64,000 nucleotides of DNA from Chryseobacterium sp. Marseille-Q5410 (GTDB lineage Bacteria > Bacteroidota > Bacteroidia > Flavobacteriales > Weeksellaceae). The position numbers and the translations under genes were made by a program. The stretch is taken from assembly GCA_946892665.1 (NCBI GenBank), contig CAMPOT010000001.1, forward strand, positions 1,922,001 through 1,986,000, read 5' to 3'. Position 1 is the first letter of the stretch, and each line of letters opens with the position of its first letter. A model generated the notes under the pieces. It was not told the origin of the DNA and did no database searches. It saw nothing but the letters and a program-made list of their open reading frames with translations. Of this stretch, positions 21,965 through 29,683 are shown one piece after another.

Positions 21965-22600
21965 TTAATGATATGTTTCGTACGCGTTATCCACGATATC
22001 ACCCATCACTTCAAGAAAGATATATTTATCTTCGGGATCATTAATATTTAATCCGCAGAACTTACTACCATTCGATTGCGCGTGAATATTCAAATAATAA
22101 GTGGAAGAAATCAGTATGGCCAAAATTGCGCGAAATTTTTTGTGATTGGCTTTAAAATAAGGATGCATGATACTCTGAAAAATCTCTTCACCCACCTCTT
22201 CCCGATGATCCGCCAGTTTTCTTAGAATATCATTGTACTCATACAATTCCCACACAATTATTTTCTGCAACTCTTTATTTTTCGAAATTGCATCAAACAT
22301 ATTTGTAATAAGTATTTTGGTAAATCCTTTCCCGTGATCAGAAACGTCTATATTGGCAAAATCGATATTTTTCATACTACTTCCATAATCTTCAGACTGA
22401 AGATAGGCGTTAATGAGGTTCTCAACAGTCCCAAAATATTCATAAATCAATTTTTTATCTACTCCCGCAACTTTCGCGATATTAGTGATTTTCAACTCGT
22501 GAAAACCCTTGGATTTAATAATTTCGCCAACTGTATTAATCAGTTTTTCTTTGGTTCGGTCTTTGTCTCGTATTGGACCACTAACAACTTTTCGCGACAT
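21965..22600 (-). CDS. TetR/AcrR-family transcriptional regulator
   Basis: 211 residues. The N-terminal helix-turn-helix is TKEKLINTVGEIIKSKGFHE, then KITNIAKVAGVDKKLIYEYFG, about residues 14-60. The C-terminal ligand-binding domain has no signature that identifies its ligand. The gene is separated from the trp operon end by about 257 bp, which contain a 16-bp palindrome (22645-22660) and a plus-strand promoter-like element. That palindrome is a candidate operator for this protein. No efflux pump or enzyme gene is adjacent, so the target is unknown. Confidence 0.9.
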   Translation of the reverse strand: MSRKVVSGPIRDKDRTKEKLINTVGEIIKSKGFHELKITNIAKVAGVDKKLIYEYFGTVENLINAYLQSEDYGSSMKNIDFANIDVSDHGKGFTKILITNMFDAISKNKELQKIIVWELYEYNDILRKLADHREEVGEEIFQSIMHPYFKANHKKFRAILAILISSTYYLNIHAQSNGSKFCGLNINDPEDKYIFLEVMGDIVDNAYETYH

Positions 22601-22857: not shown

Positions 22858-23607
22858 TTACAACTTTTCTGCTTTAATACTATTAATGAAATCTGTCGCA
22901 TAATTTTTCCAGTTTTCTTGTTCGAGAAGAATTTTGACAAATGCAGTTCCGATAATTCCTCCTGTTGCTTTTTCAGTAACTTCATCAAAATCTTTTCTAT
23001 TTTTAATACCAAACCCGATGTATAAAGGATTTTTCAATGGTAAAGATGCTAATTTCTGAAGATAATCTTGATTATTAACCGACTTATTTTCATTTCCGGT
23101 TGTGGAAGAAGAGCTCACGGCATATAAAAATCCTGAACTCAAATCATCAAGATACTTTATTCTTTCATCTGAAGTTTCCGGCGTCACTAAAAAAGTAAAC
23201 GTAAGACCATATTTTTCTACGATTCGACGATAATTTTTTTCGAATTCGATCGGCGGAAGATCAGGAATTATCAATCCAGAAACACCTGATTCAGCACATT
23301 TTTCACAAAAATTCTCGAACCCGAAACTCAAGACAGGATTGATATATCCCATCAAAATCACGGGAATTTCAATTTCATCTTTAATAGATTTAAGTTGTTC
23401 AAAGAGTTTAGCTATAGTCATACCGTTTTGCAACGCAAGTTCGTGTGCTTTTTGAATGGTTTCGCCATCAGCAACGGGATCGGAATAAGGCATTCCGATT
23501 TCCAGCATATCCGCACCAGAGTTTTGAATGAGTTTTATAATTTCAGTGGTATCTTCCAGCTTTGGAATTCCGGCGGTAAAATAAATATTGAGTTTTTTAT
23601 TGATCAT
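22858..23607 (-). CDS. trpA: tryptophan synthase alpha chain
   Basis: 249 residues, slightly shorter than E. coli TrpA. It cleaves indole-3-glycerol phosphate to indole, which is channelled to TrpB. Catalytic Glu36 and Asp47 are in LEIGMPYSDPVADGETIQ; LIIPDLPP, GFLYAVSSSSTTG and PLYIGFGIKN supply substrate- and phosphate-binding loops. It is the last gene of the operon, 12 bp after trpB. After its stop the same frame stays open for 17 codons (IYNGNAWGDYPVLVRLKI, one residue over), discussed in the findings. Confidence 0.97.
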   Translation of the reverse strand: MINKKLNIYFTAGIPKLEDTTEIIKLIQNSGADMLEIGMPYSDPVADGETIQKAHELALQNGMTIAKLFEQLKSIKDEIEIPVILMGYINPVLSFGFENFCEKCAESGVSGLIIPDLPPIEFEKNYRRIVEKYGLTFTFLVTPETSDERIKYLDDLSSGFLYAVSSSSTTGNENKSVNNQDYLQKLASLPLKNPLYIGFGIKNRKDFDEVTEKATGGIIGTAFVKILLEQENWKNYATDFINSIKAEKL

Positions 23608-23619
23608 TTTCAGTAATTT

Positions 23620-24801
23620 TTAATCCAGATTTTTCAGATAAGTTTCCATGTCTTTATCACCACGTCCGCTAAGACAGATCACTACGACATCGTCTTTTTC
23701 AAATGTTTTCTTCTTCAACACCGCCAATGCATGAGCAGATTCCAGCGCGGGAATTATCCCTTCCAATTTTGTTAATTCAAAAGCGGATTTTAAAGCTTCA
23801 TCATCATTAATGCTAAAAAAATCTGCGCGTTTCTGCTGAAATATATTTGCATGGAACGGCCCTATCCCCGGATAATCCAATCCCGCAGAAATCGAATGTG
23901 GCTCGATAACTTGCCCGTCCTCCGTTTGCATTACCAAACTTTTACTTCCGTGCAAAACTCCCAAGGTTCCTAAAAAAGTAGTAGCCGCTGATTTCCCGGA
24001 TTCCACACCAAAACCACCTGCTTCCGCCGCAATAATTTTAACCTTCTCATCATTCACAAAATGATAAAAAGTTCCTGCTGCATTGCTTCCGCCTCCTACA
24101 CAGGCAATTACGTAATCTGGGGTTTCACGTCCGATTTTCTCACTCAATTGCGCTTTTATTTCTTCGGAAATCACACTTTGAAATCTAGCTACCAAATCCG
24201 GAAACGGGTGCGGACCAACCACACTTCCGATAATATAATGTGTTGTAATAGAATTATTGATCCAATCTCTCAAAGCTTCATTTACAGCATCTTTCAACGT
24301 TTTCGAGCCAGAAGTTGCAGGAATTACCGTTGCTCCCAACATTTTCATTCGTGCAACATTTGGCGCCTGTCTCGCAATGTCGATCTCGCCCATGTAAACA
24401 ATACATTCCAACCCCAGTAACGCACACGCTGTAGCCGTTGCAACGCCGTGTTGACCAGCACCCGTTTCCGCAATGATGCGTTTTTTCCCCAATTTTTTAG
24501 CCAGTAAAGCTTGGCCGAGCGCATTGTTGATTTTGTGTGCGCCGGTATGATTCAAATCTTCCCTTTTCAGATAAATTTTGGTTTGATATTTTTCACTTAG
24601 ATTCTTCGCAAAATATAACGGAGTGGCTCTTCCAACGTAGCTTTCCAGCAAATCCTGAAACTCCACTTGGAATTCTTGGGATTCAATGATTTTCAGATAT
24701 TTTTGTTGCAGTTCTTCCACATTCGAATAAAGCATTTCCGGGATAAAAGCGCCACCAAATTCTCCGTAATATCCGTTTTTATCGGGGTTTTGGTAATTCA
24801 T
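23620..24801 (-). CDS. trpB: tryptophan synthase beta chain
   Basis: 393 residues from the ATG at 24801 ([19 protein letters not shown]); 12 upstream in-frame codons from a weaker start are rejected. This PLP enzyme joins indole and serine to make tryptophan. Lys90 in [14 protein letters not shown] binds [13 protein letters not shown] binds the phosphate, and the C-terminal [10 protein letters not shown] is present. The TrpB1-type sequence fits pairing with TrpA encoded 12 bp downstream. 60 bp separate it from trpF. Confidence 0.98.
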
Positions 24802-24861
24802 ATTTTTGTTTTTTTTATTTTGTACAACGGTTTTCAAATCTTTTACGAAACTTATTTTAAG

Positions 24862-25503
24862 TTATACCGTATTATACGATTTTATAAATTCTTTTATTTT
24901 TTCTAAATTTTTAATCCCCGGCTCGAATTCAAATTTAGAATTGATATCGAGGGAAAATGGCTGATTATTTAGCGTTGGTATTTGATGGAAATTTTCTAAA
25001 GAAATTCCACCGCTTAGAAAATATGGAAAAGGGATTTCTAATTCATTCAAAATTTTCCAATCAAAAGTTTTTCCTGTACCTCCGAACGCTTTGGAATCGG
25101 TATCAAACAGGAGATAGTTGATAGTTTTTGGCAGTAGGTTGATATTTTTTTGTAATTCTTCTGAATTTTGATTGCCAATTCTTATGACTTTGATAATTTT
25201 AATTTGGTAAGGAAGTTTATTTTTCAAATTCGCAACATAATTTTCGTCCTCATCACCGTGAAGTTGAATAAAATTAAGAGCTGCTTTTACTGAAAGATCA
25301 GTCACATTTTCAATTGTTTCGTTCACAAAAACTCCGACTTTACCTAAATGCGGGATTTGCGATAAGTACTTTAAGCTCAAACAATTAAGAACATATCTTG
25401 GTGATTTTTCATAGAAAATAAAGCCTAAGAAATCTACTTTCAAAGAAATTAATTCCTGAATTTGATCGAGTTTTGTTAATCCACAAACTTTTAGTTTCAT
25501 CAT
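24862..25503 (-). CDS. trpF: phosphoribosylanthranilate isomerase
   Basis: 213 residues, TIM barrel. It isomerises N-(5-phosphoribosyl)anthranilate to the carboxyphenylaminodeoxyribulose phosphate. The N-terminal KVCGLTKLDQI has the catalytic Cys, DFLGFIFYEKSPRYV follows, and the acid residue lies in LLFDTDSKAFGGTGKTFDW. The phosphate site is FLSGGISLEN. It is separate from trpC, unlike the fused enterobacterial gene. Two adjacent Met codons make the exact start uncertain by one residue. Confidence 0.96.
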   Translation of the reverse strand: MMKLKVCGLTKLDQIQELISLKVDFLGFIFYEKSPRYVLNCLSLKYLSQIPHLGKVGVFVNETIENVTDLSVKAALNFIQLHGDEDENYVANLKNKLPYQIKIIKVIRIGNQNSEELQKNINLLPKTINYLLFDTDSKAFGGTGKTFDWKILNELEIPFPYFLSGGISLENFHQIPTLNNQPFSLDINSKFEFEPGIKNLEKIKEFIKSYNTV

Positions 25504-25525
25504 TTTTTAATAGAGCATCTGCCTT

Positions 25526-26311
25526 CTAAGCAGACGGTCTTGCTAAGTTAACAAATGTTTCAAACGCTTTTCCCGGATTTTCATTTTTCATAAAATACTC
25601 ACCCATCAGAAATCCATCAAACCCTGTGCGTTTCAGAAATTGATAATCCTGTACATTGTATATTCCACTTTCTGCAACGGATAAAGTTCCGTCTGGAAGT
25701 AGGTTTTTCAAATCAACAGAATGCTGTAAATCCACTTTGAAATCTTTCAAATTTCGATTGTTGATTCCCACCAAATCGATATAGTTATTAAAACATTTCA
25801 GTTCTTCCTCGGTATGAATTTCAAGCAAAACTTCCAAACCTAATTCATGGGAAAGTTGGGTAAATTCCTGAACCTGAACCGGTGACAAACACGCTGCAAT
25901 AAGTAGAACAACATCTGCTCCTATGGATTTTGCTTCATAAAACTGGTATTCGTCTACCAAAAAATCTTTTCGCAGAATCGGGATTTTAATTTCATTTCTA
26001 ATCATTAAAATATCTTCAAAACTTCCACCAAAAAAATCAGAATCTGTTAATACGGAAATCCCACTTGCTCCAAATTTTTCGTAAGTCTTTGCTACCTCCA
26101 AAACATCAGCTTGATTATTTATAATTCCTTTGCTTGGTGATTTTCTTTTAAACTCGGCGATAATTCCGGAATTTTGAACCAACGATTCCTTCAAAGAAAA
26201 GGTTTTCCTTTCAAAAAAAGCTGAATTTTTAAGGTCTTTCAACGTAATCTGAGATTTGGAAAAAGAAATTTCTTCTTTTTTTCTGGCGATAATTTGGTCT
26301 AAAATATTCAT
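25526..26311 (-). CDS. trpC: indole-3-glycerol phosphate synthase
   Basis: 261 residues. The opening MNILDQIIARKKEEISFSK is family-typical, and GIIAEFKRKSPSKG carries the catalytic Lys. PILRKDFLVDEYQ, GINNRNLKDFKVD and VAESGIYNVQD complete the barrel motifs. It closes the indole ring in tryptophan synthesis. It starts one base after the trpD stop region (26313), so translation is almost certainly coupled, and trpF follows 22 bp downstream. Confidence 0.97.
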   Translation of the reverse strand: MNILDQIIARKKEEISFSKSQITLKDLKNSAFFERKTFSLKESLVQNSGIIAEFKRKSPSKGIINNQADVLEVAKTYEKFGASGISVLTDSDFFGGSFEDILMIRNEIKIPILRKDFLVDEYQFYEAKSIGADVVLLIAACLSPVQVQEFTQLSHELGLEVLLEIHTEEELKCFNNYIDLVGINNRNLKDFKVDLQHSVDLKNLLPDGTLSVAESGIYNVQDYQFLKRTGFDGFLMGEYFMKNENPGKAFETFVNLARPSA

Positions 26312-26312
26312 C

Positions 26313-27299
26313 TTAATTTAATAGATTTTGTAAACATTGCAACGCTTTTCCACTTTCTAAACTTTCTCTAGCTGCGGCCAAACAATCCGAGTAACCACCA
26401 AATTTTTCGGTATTTCTTAACGCCATCGCTGCGTTGGCAATCACCACCGAATTTTGTTCTTCAGTTCCGTTTCCTTCCAAAATATCTCTAAAGATTTTTG
26501 CTGCATCTTGTTTTGAATTTCCACCGAAAATGCTTTCTTGATCGATTGTACTGAAACCTAATTCTTCTGCTGAAAAAATATATTCACCTGTCTTATCGAA
26601 AATTTTGGTATCCGAAGTCAAGGAAATTTCATCATATCCGTCGAGCGAATGAACGAGCAAGAAATTTTCTTGATTTTTTTGAAGCAAATACTGATAAATC
26701 CTCGCAATTTCTAAACTATAAACGCCAATCATGGAAAATTTTGGTTTCGCAGGATTAACAAGAGGACCTAGAATATTGAAAAAAGTTCTCAAGCCCAATC
26801 CTTTTCGCAAAGGTCCAACCGATCGCAAAGCGGGATGGAAAACGGGCGCATGAAGAAAACAGATATTACTTTTTTCCAAATCCTGGCGTAAATCTTCGGA
26901 TTTTGTTTTGAACTGATAACCCAGTTCTTCCAACACATTTGAAGATCCGGAAATCGTCGAAACTCCGTAATTTCCATGTTTCGCAACATTTTGTCCGGCT
27001 CCGGCAACCACAAAACTGGCCAAGGTGGAAATGTTAAAAGTATTTTTTCCGTCACCGCCGGTTCCCACGATATCGACTAGATCTTGAGTTCCCAAATCCA
27101 CCGGCACGGAAAGCCGAAGTAAAGCTTCCCGAAATCCTTCCATTTCTTCGAGGGTAATGCTGCGCATGAGAAAAACGGTCACAAAAGCGGTAACTTCATT
27201 TTCGTTGAATTTATTCTGTGCAATTTCGGTAAGAATCGCTTTTGCTTCGGACTTTGAAAGCGTATTATGGTTGAATAAATATTGTAAGATCTCTTTCAT
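26313..27299 (-). CDS. trpD: anthranilate phosphoribosyltransferase
   Basis: 328 residues. It transfers phosphoribose from PRPP to anthranilate. The PRPP-binding motif is VDIVGTGGDGKNTFNIST, then KHGNYGVSTISGSSNVLEELG and the RTFFNILGPLVNPA segment typical of the family. The N-terminal helical domain begins LFNHNTLSKSEAKAIL. It is monofunctional, not fused to TrpG. It lies 25 bp after trpG and 1 bp before trpC. Confidence 0.97.
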   Translation of the reverse strand: MKEILQYLFNHNTLSKSEAKAILTEIAQNKFNENEVTAFVTVFLMRSITLEEMEGFREALLRLSVPVDLGTQDLVDIVGTGGDGKNTFNISTLASFVVAGAGQNVAKHGNYGVSTISGSSNVLEELGYQFKTKSEDLRQDLEKSNICFLHAPVFHPALRSVGPLRKGLGLRTFFNILGPLVNPAKPKFSMIGVYSLEIARIYQYLLQKNQENFLLVHSLDGYDEISLTSDTKIFDKTGEYIFSAEELGFSTIDQESIFGGNSKQDAAKIFRDILEGNGTEEQNSVVIANAAMALRNTEKFGGYSDCLAAARESLESGKALQCLQNLLN

Positions 27300-27324
27300 T
27301 TTATATAATTTAATAATTCGGAAA

Positions 27325-27888
27325 TTAAGCCAGAAAATTTTCTAATATTTGTTTTCCTTTAGGTGTTAAAATGCTTTCCGGATGGTATTGTACCGCGTGT
27401 ACATCGTAGTTTTTATGTTTTAAACTCATAATCATTCCGTTTTTATCTACACTCGTAATTTCTAATTCATCAGGGAAATTTTCAGGATTTACCGCCCAGG
27501 AATGATACCTTCCGACTTCTAAAGTTCCAGGTAAATCTTTAAAAATCTTATGCTCGCTTATTTGCTTGGATTCCGTAGCAACCCCATGGTAAATCTCTGA
27601 CAGATTAATTAAAGTTCCCCCAAAAGCTTCAGCAATCGCCTGCTGCCCTAGACAAACTCCAAAAATGGATTTCGCAGGTGCATATTTTTTAATCAAACTC
27701 ACAAGTATTCCCGCTTCCTCAGGAATTCCGGGACCAGGAGAAAGGATAATTTTATCGTATTTTTCGATTTCTTCCAAAGAAATTTTATCATTTCTGAAAA
27801 CATCAATTTTATCGTTTACAATTTGCTCAATCATTTGAACCAAATTATAAGTAAAACTGTCGTAATTATCAAGGACTAAAATTTTCAT
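27325..27888 (-). CDS. trpG: anthranilate synthase glutamine amidotransferase component
   Basis: 187 residues from the ATG at 27888 (MKILVLDNYDSFTYNL). A TTG five codons earlier is less likely. This class I glutamine amidotransferase supplies ammonia to TrpE. Cys79 is the nucleophile in FGVCLGQQAIAEAFGG, PGPG lies at 51-54, and the His-Glu pair is in VQYHPESIL. It may also serve para-aminobenzoate synthesis, as shared TrpG/PabA subunits do in some bacteria; no pabB is seen here. It starts 19 bp after trpE ends. Confidence 0.97.
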   Translation of the reverse strand: MKILVLDNYDSFTYNLVQMIEQIVNDKIDVFRNDKISLEEIEKYDKIILSPGPGIPEEAGILVSLIKKYAPAKSIFGVCLGQQAIAEAFGGTLINLSEIYHGVATESKQISEHKIFKDLPGTLEVGRYHSWAVNPENFPDELEITSVDKNGMIMSLKHKNYDVHAVQYHPESILTPKGKQILENFLA

Positions 27889-27907
27889 GTTATTTATTTT
27901 CAATAAT

Positions 27908-29329
27908 TTATACCAATTTTTCTGCTTTTAGGATGGCTTTTTTCAAAGCGCCCAATTTGTTATTTACTTCCTGAAGTTCATTTTCAGCAGAAGATTTTGC
28001 AACAATTCCGGCTCCGGCTTGGTAAAATAACGTGTTATTTTTGCTCAAAAAAGTACGGATCATTATCGCTTGGTTACAGCTTCCATCGAAACCTACAAAA
28101 CCAATAGATCCACCGTAATAGCTTCGGGAAGTCTTTTCATATTTATCAATAAGCTGCATTGCACGGTATTTTGGAGCACCACTTAATGTGCCTTGCGGAA
28201 AGGTGGTCGCAATCATTTCATAAGGATTTTGATCTAAAGAAATCTCAGTAGTAACTTCTGAAACCATGTGAATTACATGTGAAAAAAACTGAATTTCTTT
28301 CAATTTGGACACTTTGGTATTTTTTCCGAAAATGCTTAAATCGTTTCTCGCCAAATCTACAAGCATCGTGTGTTCCGCATTTTCTTTCGCGTCATCTTTA
28401 AGCTCTTCTGCGGCTTTCAAATCTTCTTCCACATTTCCGGTTCGCTTAAAAGTTCCAGCGATTGGGTGAATAATTGCATTACCATTTTTTATAATCAACT
28501 GACTTTCAGGACTCGAACCCAAAAGTTTATAATCGCCATAATCGAAGAAAAATAAATACGGTGATGGATTGATATTTCGCAAAGACCGGTAAACATTAAA
28601 TTCATCGCCCATAAATTTCTGCTGAAATCTTCTGCTCAAAACCAATTGAAACACATCACCTCGGAAACAATGTTTTTTGGCAGTTTCTACAGCGTCTCTG
28701 TATTCTTCGTCAGTTAAATTAGATGCTTCCTCTCCTATTTTTTGGAAGGGAAAAATTGGTGCATTTTTTTGTTGAATTAAATTTTCAATGACTGAAATCT
28801 CCGATTTTAAACCTGAGATTTTGTTTTCAATGAGGAACATTTCATCGTTTTGATGATTGATTGCAATAACGTACTGATAGAGACGATATCGCAAAAGTGG
28901 AATCTTATTTTCCTCAGAAGCCTCTTTGAATTTTATATTTTCGAAAAACGGAATCGCATCGTAAGAAGTGTAACCAAAGAAACCTTGCGCGGATTTCCCG
29001 ATCGGAAGATTGGGCTCTTCACATTCGAAAGATTGAGAAAAATCTTGAAGCAAATCCGTTAGTTTTTCTTGTTCAATGTTGATTTTTTCTGCACTTTCGA
29101 GTGGAAATTTCAGGTGTGCTTCCTGGTAATTTCTAATCTCGATTCCAGCGATGGCATTCACTGCAATAAAGGAAAAATTGTTATCATTATTTTGATTTTC
29201 TGCACTTTCTAGAAGTATGGTATCCCGAAATTGATCTCGTAAACGCAAATAAATTCCAATGGGAGTAAATAGATCGCTCAAGGTAGATTTCACCGTTGTT
29301 TTCAGCTGAATATTTCGATTGAATTTCAT
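27908..29329 (-). CDS. trpE: anthranilate synthase component I
   Basis: 473 residues. It converts chorismate to anthranilate, the committed step. The LLES motif (39-42, TILLESAENQ) is the tryptophan feedback-inhibition site, so the enzyme is probably allosterically inhibited. The chorismate-binding domain has LVLSRRFQQKF, HPIAGTFKRTG, VDLARNDL and FPQGTLSGAPKYRAMQLI. It is the first structural gene after the attenuator at 29352-29485. Confidence 0.97.
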   Translation of the reverse strand: MKFNRNIQLKTTVKSTLSDLFTPIGIYLRLRDQFRDTILLESAENQNNDNNFSFIAVNAIAGIEIRNYQEAHLKFPLESAEKINIEQEKLTDLLQDFSQSFECEEPNLPIGKSAQGFFGYTSYDAIPFFENIKFKEASEENKIPLLRYRLYQYVIAINHQNDEMFLIENKISGLKSEISVIENLIQQKNAPIFPFQKIGEEASNLTDEEYRDAVETAKKHCFRGDVFQLVLSRRFQQKFMGDEFNVYRSLRNINPSPYLFFFDYGDYKLLGSSPESQLIIKNGNAIIHPIAGTFKRTGNVEEDLKAAEELKDDAKENAEHTMLVDLARNDLSIFGKNTKVSKLKEIQFFSHVIHMVSEVTTEISLDQNPYEMIATTFPQGTLSGAPKYRAMQLIDKYEKTSRSYYGGSIGFVGFDGSCNQAIMIRTFLSKNNTLFYQAGAGIVAKSSAENELQEVNNKLGALKKAILKAEKLV

Positions 29330-29351: not shown

Positions 29352-29386
29352 AAAAAAAAGACCTCAACATAAAGTCAAAGTCTTTT
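29352..29386 (-). terminator. trpL attenuator: trp attenuator terminator
   Basis: The minus-strand stem pairs 29380-29386 (AAAAGAC) with 29356-29362 (GTCTTTT) and continues inward through TTTGAC/GTTGAG with wobble pairs to a TTTAT loop. A T-tract follows, between the leader ORF and trpE. Bases 29375-29384 also form a perfect 10-nt complement to 29432-29441 inside the leader ORF. That pairing would destroy this hairpin (the antiterminator). Confidence 0.88.
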
Positions 29387-29410
29387 AATTTTTTGATAAA
29401 ATATAATTTT

Positions 29411-29485
29411 TTACACAAAAGAGTAATGCTCAAGACTTTGAAAGTTTTGATGCCACCACCAGTTTGTATTGTTGTTTGTTTTCAT
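29411..29485 (-). CDS. trpL: trp operon leader peptide with three tandem Trp codons
   Basis: ATG at 29485, TAA at 29411-29413, 24 residues. It starts MKTNNNTN, then WWW (codons at 29453-29461), then HQNFQSLEHYSFV. The Trp triplet lies about 12 nt before the antiterminator segment (29432-29441), so a ribosome stalled there for lack of Trp-tRNA would leave that segment free to pair with 29375-29384 and prevent termination. This is attenuation of the enterobacterial type. The sequence is too short for standard gene callers. Confidence 0.9.
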   Translation of the reverse strand: MKTNNNTNWWWHQNFQSLEHYSFV

Positions 29486-29490
29486 TGGTA

Positions 29491-29498
29491 CAAATGTA
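29491..29498 (-). promoter_or_regulatory. -7 box of the trp leader
   Basis: TACATTTG on the minus strand matches TAnnTTTG and ends five bases before the leader ATG, so the trp mRNA would have a very short or absent 5' UTR. A -33 TTTG partner is not clear. Confidence 0.5.
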
Positions 29499-29683
29499 TA
29501 AATGTTTTTTAAAAAAACTACATTTATTTAAAAATAATTGATCGGTCTTTTCATCGCACAAGTTTACACTTTCCATTAAAGTAGGTATCAGTGAATGGAT
29601 ATTTGATCTTCATTATAAATAAGAATTAATAAAGCTGTTTCCGATTTTTATCACTAAAATTTAAAAGTTAATTTTGAATTTTC
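29499..29683. other. intergenic stretch upstream of the trp leader
   Basis: AT-rich DNA between the trp leader promoter and the promoter of the small lipoprotein at 29709. I see no ORF, RNA gene or palindrome that would mark a TrpR-type operator. Confidence 0.3.

Follow-up and report, generated by a model that had tools for sequence, protein, structure and literature searches.

What controls transcription of the tryptophan operon in a bacterium whose genome yields no match to TrpR or TRAP? The question arises at a trp operon of Chryseobacterium sp. Marseille-Q5410, which lies within a 64,000-nt stretch of contig CAMPOT010000001.1 that we refer to as the window:

22858–29329, minus strand: operon trpE-G-D-C-F-B-A, identified from open reading frames (ORFs) and NCBIfam matches in all seven genes

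The matches of trpG_papA, trpD, trpC (NF001377), trpB and trpA lie above the curated NCBIfam cut-offs and those of trpE and trpF only below theirs; the seven genes, trpEGDCFBA, are presumably read as one transcript. In the collection searched, the closest named TrpE relatives, 97% identical, are those of Kaistella haifensis and 'Chryseobacterium senegalensis', and close to the TrpE N-terminus stands an LLES motif, which, as in E. coli, would be a feedback site. Downstream of trpA on the same strand lies a TetR-like gene (21965–22600) with weak NCBIfam matches, all below cut-off. Because a TetR-family gene is cotranscribed with trpA in Flavobacterium psychrophilum where FP0506 is absent, according to a passage of PMC6414381, this gene neighbourhood may be conserved. 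The earlier note on this DNA had taken the absence of a recognisable TrpR-type operator as a sign that an attenuator may be the main transcriptional control. The TrpR profile (PF01371) gave 0 matches in the genome, with control matches in E. coli and B. subtilis. The TRAP/TrpBP profile (PF02081) likewise gave 0 matches in the genome and a control match in B. subtilis, and the two Rfam matches in the window that reach the gathering score, a tRNA and Bacteroid-trp, include no T-box. Control of the operon by TrpR, TRAP or a T-box was rejected because there was no PF01371, PF02081 or T-box match.

The DNA upstream of trpE offers another answer, which we consider very probable on sequence grounds, namely that the operon is governed by a ribosome-mediated transcription attenuator of the Bacteroid-trp class. 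Its parts, all read leftwards, are the following:

29411–29485, minus strand: trp leader-peptide ORF, 24 codons plus the stop codon TAA, MKTNNNTNWWWHQNFQSLEHYSFV, read from the sequence
29453–29461, minus strand: three tandem Trp codons, the predicted ribosome stall site, read from the sequence
29413–29469, minus strand: leader hairpin, a predicted fold that encloses the Trp codons and the antiterminator strand, with an inner hairpin at 29450–29430
29432–29441, minus strand: antiterminator strand TCAAAGTCTT, which forms the inner hairpin's 3′ side and matches the terminator 5′ arm as its exact complement over 10 nt
29375–29384, minus strand: segment AAGACTTTGA of the terminator 5′ arm, the partner of antiterminator strand TCAAAGTCTT
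29352–29386, minus strand: intrinsic terminator with a 13-bp stem (29386–29356), a 5-nt loop and eight T at 29359–29352

The arrangement is that of a trp attenuator: a short ORF with tandem Trp codons stands between a predicted promoter and trpE, its start 156 nt ahead of the trpE ATG (29329), and a terminator precedes trpE, ending 26 nt before it. The earlier note had described a 24-codon ORF with WWW at 29453–29461, a terminator hairpin at 29356–29386 with a T-tract before trpE, and a perfect 10-nt complement between 29432–29441 and 29375–29384; the ORF coordinates are right to the base, those of the terminator and the complement are likewise exact, and the T-run extends to 29352. A complement of at least 10 nt turned up in 10 of 5,000 dinucleotide-preserving shuffles of the leader, so the pairing goes beyond chance. 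The 146-nt leader is predicted to fold at −30.0 kcal/mol (z = −3.58; 0 of 200 shuffles equalled it) into the long hairpin 29469–29413 plus the terminator, the inner hairpin beginning right after the Trp codons; the leader hairpin region is also drawn as a hairpin in the consensus of Rfam family RF01692.

That family, described as 'Bacteroidete tryptophan peptide leader RNA', matches the window here:

29395–29505, minus strand: Rfam RF01692 Bacteroid-trp match, 51.5 bits against a gathering score of 49, covering model positions 1–131

The element thus passes the gathering threshold of the family and also has its traits, as it sits upstream of trp biosynthesis genes in a member of the Bacteroidota (trpE from 29329) and carries a leader ORF with Trp codons inside a hairpin. 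The Bacteroid-trp motif is listed by Weinberg et al. 2010 (PMC2864571, Table 1), and passages of two papers on F. psychrophilum mention the element or its kind (PMC6414381; PMC9723704). Judged by its sequence, the window element is a member of an already catalogued class, Bacteroid-trp, because it matches RF01692 and has these earlier mentions in F. psychrophilum. The structured 5′ regions of that species resemble ours in that leader-peptide attenuation has been inferred upstream of amino-acid operons (PMC9723704; PMC6414381), where passages of the former describe it as strongly indicated.

The likeness to RF01692 covers the Trp codons in a long leader hairpin upstream of trp genes of Bacteroidota, whereas the terminator stem of the window lies 9 nt beyond the end of the match. 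In our own reading, the last letters of the RF01692 consensus resemble the terminator 5′ arm found in distant relatives, and neither terminator nor antiterminator is paired in its structure line; its first 20 positions overlie the predicted promoter box of the window. The present analysis ties the Bacteroid-trp motif to a full attenuator layout of promoter box, leader, antiterminator and terminator. Loci were grouped, by our own choice, on record title and TrpE identity, which placed 37 named loci and the window in one clade. Of 20 clade loci (out of the 37 named ones) RF01692 recovered 2 at its gathering score, and of 20 more distant loci (out of 43 other named ones) it recovered 10; all 40 have a leader ORF, and the model is insensitive in the clade of the window. 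Across 60 genomes of relatives, among them that of the window, RF01692 matched in 18 at E ≤ 0.001 and in 11 above the cut-off, under filters by which weak matches are missed. Matches to another Rfam family, Flavo-1 RNA (RF01705), were seen in two trpE loci (L076:3518-3591 and L100:2893-2967).

Comparison of the relatives, a check proposed in the earlier note, revealed that both the leader ORF and the pairing are conserved and that the pairing differs in step between clades, and the attenuator reading of that note gains support from the conserved ORF, the terminator and the fit of leader to terminator. In 78 of 80 named loci, the 700 nt ahead of trpE contain a short ORF with WW or WWW; the two without one are L105 and L123, the latter counted as 'none' with 89 nt of upstream DNA only. 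Many of the loci L019–L048 showed no W, probably because they were not oriented to the gene, and these enter none of the counts. A terminator follows the leader in 76 of the 79 loci that have a leader, window included, the remaining three (L090, L094 and L111) having none by the rule used and being left out of the pairing and swap tests on terminator arm plus loop. Because distant clades pair with the terminator loop, the target in these 76 loci was widened to the terminator 5′ arm, the loop and three bases of the 3′ arm. The leader–terminator duplex then surpassed that of mononucleotide-shuffled leaders at p < 0.05 in 56 loci, and p was 0.05 or more in 20, even with the terminator loop and 3′-arm base as target. 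When the 5′ arm alone was the target (74 loci, L101 and L108 also left out), p fell below 0.05 in 30 of 38 clade loci and in one of the 36 others (L116). The pairing partner varies by clade, being the 5′ arm in leaders of the window's type and the loop plus 3′-arm base in distant families.

Leaders and terminators were then swapped between loci. Cognate combinations averaged −12.9 kcal/mol and non-cognate ones −9.7 kcal/mol, a difference equalled in 0 of 2,000 permutations. With one representative per cluster, 0 of 20,000 permutations came up to the cognate mean whether there were 29 clusters or 17, and 834 of 20,000 did so with four coarse clusters, so that the cognate fit stands above the non-cognate in two of three clusterings. 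The elements are conserved, leader and terminator fit one another across clades, and this fit spans several Bacteroidota families. Pattern searches were rejected as attenuator counts at two levels: the class-wide ones (83 and 129 of 295 genomes) returned many apparently random matches, and the family-wide pattern (95 of 148 genomes) takes in matches away from trpE. At L080:1186-1500, the gap between leader and trpE holds, by eye, a second copy of the terminator 3′ half and the bases that follow it.

Within the inner hairpin, four of eight pairs are kept through two-sided changes among the sequences compared, which came from 29 of the 38 clade loci, window included. Because these changes track clades, the covariation may stem from few events; one of the four pairs is unformed in 8 of the 29 sequences, and no two-sided change occurs among the ten closest sequences, those with a 24-codon leader. 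RNAalifold recovered only part of the whole leader hairpin from 21 distant leaders (of the 41 others). Leader codon 12 (29450–29452) is CAT in the window and CCT in the nine other 24-codon leaders, a change from Pro to His that breaks an inner-hairpin pair in the window.

How would such a leader sense tryptophan? Transcription would begin at the leader AUG or one base before it, and a ribosome would load onto the leaderless message. With ample Trp-tRNA, it would clear the three Trp codons, the inner hairpin 29450–29430 would hold or re-form behind it, and the antiterminator strand would stay hidden, whereupon the terminator 29386–29356 would fold and transcription would stop before trpE. With scarce Trp-tRNA, the ribosome would stall on 29461–29453, melt the 5′ side of the inner hairpin, which the footprint of a stalled ribosome would cover, and free 29441–29432 to pair with 29384–29375 before the terminator 3′ arm is made, allowing read-through into trpEGDCFBA. 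Attenuation is well supported by the sequence and the tryptophan response itself is a prediction; we infer the stalling, the kinetics, the exact start site and the dependence on tryptophan. If correct, the scheme suggests a route to tryptophan control in a genome without TrpR or TRAP.

Equilibrium folding was compared with and without masking of the Trp codons in ten sequences with a 24-codon leader, window included. With the Trp codons masked, and before the terminator 3′ arm was complete, antiterminator pairing reached 0.95–0.98 in the window; across the ten sequences before completion of the terminator it was 0.97–0.98. For the unmasked leader at this stage the window gave 0.60, two relatives gave 0.02 and 0.05, and the other seven 0.80–0.98. 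Masking accordingly shifted the pairing from 0.60 to 0.97 in the window, strongly in two of nine relatives and little or not at all in the other seven. The completed RNA prefers the terminator in all ten sequences, stalled (masked) or not, and in the window the terminator is already preferred in most masked cases with its 3′ arm nearly complete. The folding model thus backs two alternative structures but, taken alone, no stall-dependent choice between them, as it yields only a partial switch; either kinetics or the moving ribosome has to decide.

That the complete RNA takes the terminator form regardless of the leader would also suit a terminator that is constitutive or answers to another factor (TrpR, TRAP, a T-box or some other RNA-binding protein), the Trp-rich ORF being a by-product. 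Some regulator beside the three named ones is conceivable, and the TetR-like gene at 21965–22600 downstream of trpA could be counted in its favour. However, the lack of TrpR and TRAP matches in the genome and of a T-box match in the window speaks against the named factors, and tandem Trp codons near a pairing strand in many families would be unexpected in a by-product; we consider this explanation very unlikely. A second alternative, that the leader ORF acts on trpE translation by coupling or reinitiation and leaves termination alone, draws on a passage of PMC4833913 in which a role of leader ORFs in reinitiation is proposed for Bacteroidetes among others. Here, however, the leader stop and the trpE AUG are by coordinates 81 nt apart, the terminator lying in between, a gap far from the 11–14 bp peak given for Bacteroidetes in the same source (PMC4833913), and this alternative seems to us scarcely credible. 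Transcription attenuation thus stays the preferred reading, within which the start and the end of the leader ORF call for separate treatment.

The start lies close to a promoter element:

29491–29498, minus strand: Bacteroidota sigma-factor −7 box TACATTTG (consensus TAnnTTTG), read from the sequence, 5 nt before the leader AUG

The 400 nt ahead of the leader contain no exact TAnnTTTG other than TACATTTG, and looser matches exist; the density of exact boxes across the window is 0.71 per kb per strand. Many boxes of Flavobacterium johnsoniae stand 4–5 nt before the predicted transcription start, as reported in a passage of PMC6847099, and we predict a start at 29486 or 29485 because of that distance. 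The trp leader mRNA is therefore probably leaderless, with AUG at its first or second base. An exact box occurs 4–5 nt before an in-frame leader AUG in 31 of the 38 clade loci. Among the other seven, one has it at 11–22 nt, L077 has one, at 7–10 nt, solely with respect to an ATG that precedes the usual start by 72 nt, and five have none within 30 nt. Three of these five boxless loci (L067, L069 and L070) show about 50 nt between a box and an in-frame AUG, which would fit a short insertion behind the original start. At the 41 other leader loci the distance is 4–6 nt in 4, 7–10 nt in 15 and 11–22 nt in 16, with no box within 30 nt in 6; in L001 and L002, from two genomes of the window's order that match RF01692, the box stands 18 nt before the first AUG.

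These spacings also bear on the alternative that the same attenuator is conventionally leadered, transcribed from a start farther upstream with an ordinary 5′ UTR, the position of TACATTTG near the AUG being coincidental. Leaderless mRNAs are a minority in studied relatives, at 5.5% in F. psychrophilum (passage of PMC9723704), and leaders of more than 10 nt occur on 87% of F. johnsoniae transcripts with a probable promoter (passage of PMC6847099); the 16 of 41 loci outside the clade with a box 11–22 nt before the AUG, the 7 of 38 clade loci lacking an exact box at 4–5 nt and the looser box-like sites upstream in the window point the same way. Against a coincidence stand the recurrence of the exact 4–5-nt spacing in 31 of 38 clade loci and, at the window's box density, the lack of a second exact box within 400 nt, so that we regard a leadered transcript as unlikely and continue with the leaderless one.

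Precedent for it comes from an Alphaproteobacterium, Sinorhizobium meliloti, whose trpL RNA begins at its own AUG and so encodes a leaderless leader peptide, in a trpL-trpE(G) operon for which PMC7298713, in a passage on this operon, gives no transcription repression; its 14-aa peptide also acts in trans, a role not known for the element of the window. The comparison with the E. coli trp leader, whose attenuator is outlined in a passage of the same paper (PMC7298713), covers the tandem Trp codons, an arm shared between antiterminator and terminator and a hairpin of the 1:2 type over the Trp codons. In contrast to E. coli, the window has no Shine-Dalgarno-like sequence (GGA, GAG, AGG and GGG are all absent from the 20 nt that precede the leader AUG), 18 nt between strand and stop, a predicted leaderless start and a genome without TrpR. 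In the textbook model, a ribosome at the stop codon masks the strand.

The window's leader ends differently. By coordinates, 18 nt separate its antiterminator strand from its stop codon, and a ribosome footprint of the usual size, which extends some 15 nt upstream from the P site, would reach to the edge of that strand. Measured from where the Trp codons begin, the pairing strand reaches to about 31–33 nt and the ORF to 51–54 nt in 28 of 38 clade loci; in Kaistella leaders of 18 codons, as in many distant families, the stop codon falls inside the strand, at it or only a few nt away, where a ribosome at the stop would mask it as the textbook model has it. Because the ORF extends well past the antiterminator strand in leaders of the window's type, the geometry suggests that the strand is probably hidden by the hairpin re-forming behind the ribosome.

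Taken together, the two ends of the leader lead us to propose, tentatively and in the knowledge that it could well prove wrong, that in the Kaistella / Epilithonimonas clade the trp attenuator became leaderless and, in the window's and the Epilithonimonas leader types, had its frame lengthened past the antiterminator strand, the Trp-rich state being set by a re-forming hairpin rather than by a ribosome parked at the stop codon. If true, ribosome-mediated attenuation would here operate in a mode of its own, within a phylum whose translation initiation does without Shine-Dalgarno pairing. The locus also offers a small natural test of whether translation of a leaderless message can set the pace of transcription tightly enough to permit attenuation. 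Among the open-access listings and passages that our search covered there was no report of a leaderless leader peptide in Bacteroidota, nor of an ORF run past the antiterminator strand; these two features are what merits experiment, the class itself being already known.

Leaderless starts are perhaps not unusual in the window, because among its 56 ORFs of at least 120 codons, 20 have a box within 120 nt and 5 of these 20 carry it 3–7 nt before the first ATG. In the rest of the genome, hisG gave no match, and no leader ORF of 8–60 codons was found in the 400 nt upstream of pheA. At this pheA (L187, C1:1243491-1244024) a TAnnTTTG box stands 4 nt before the first in-frame AUG, and its transcript may be leaderless too.
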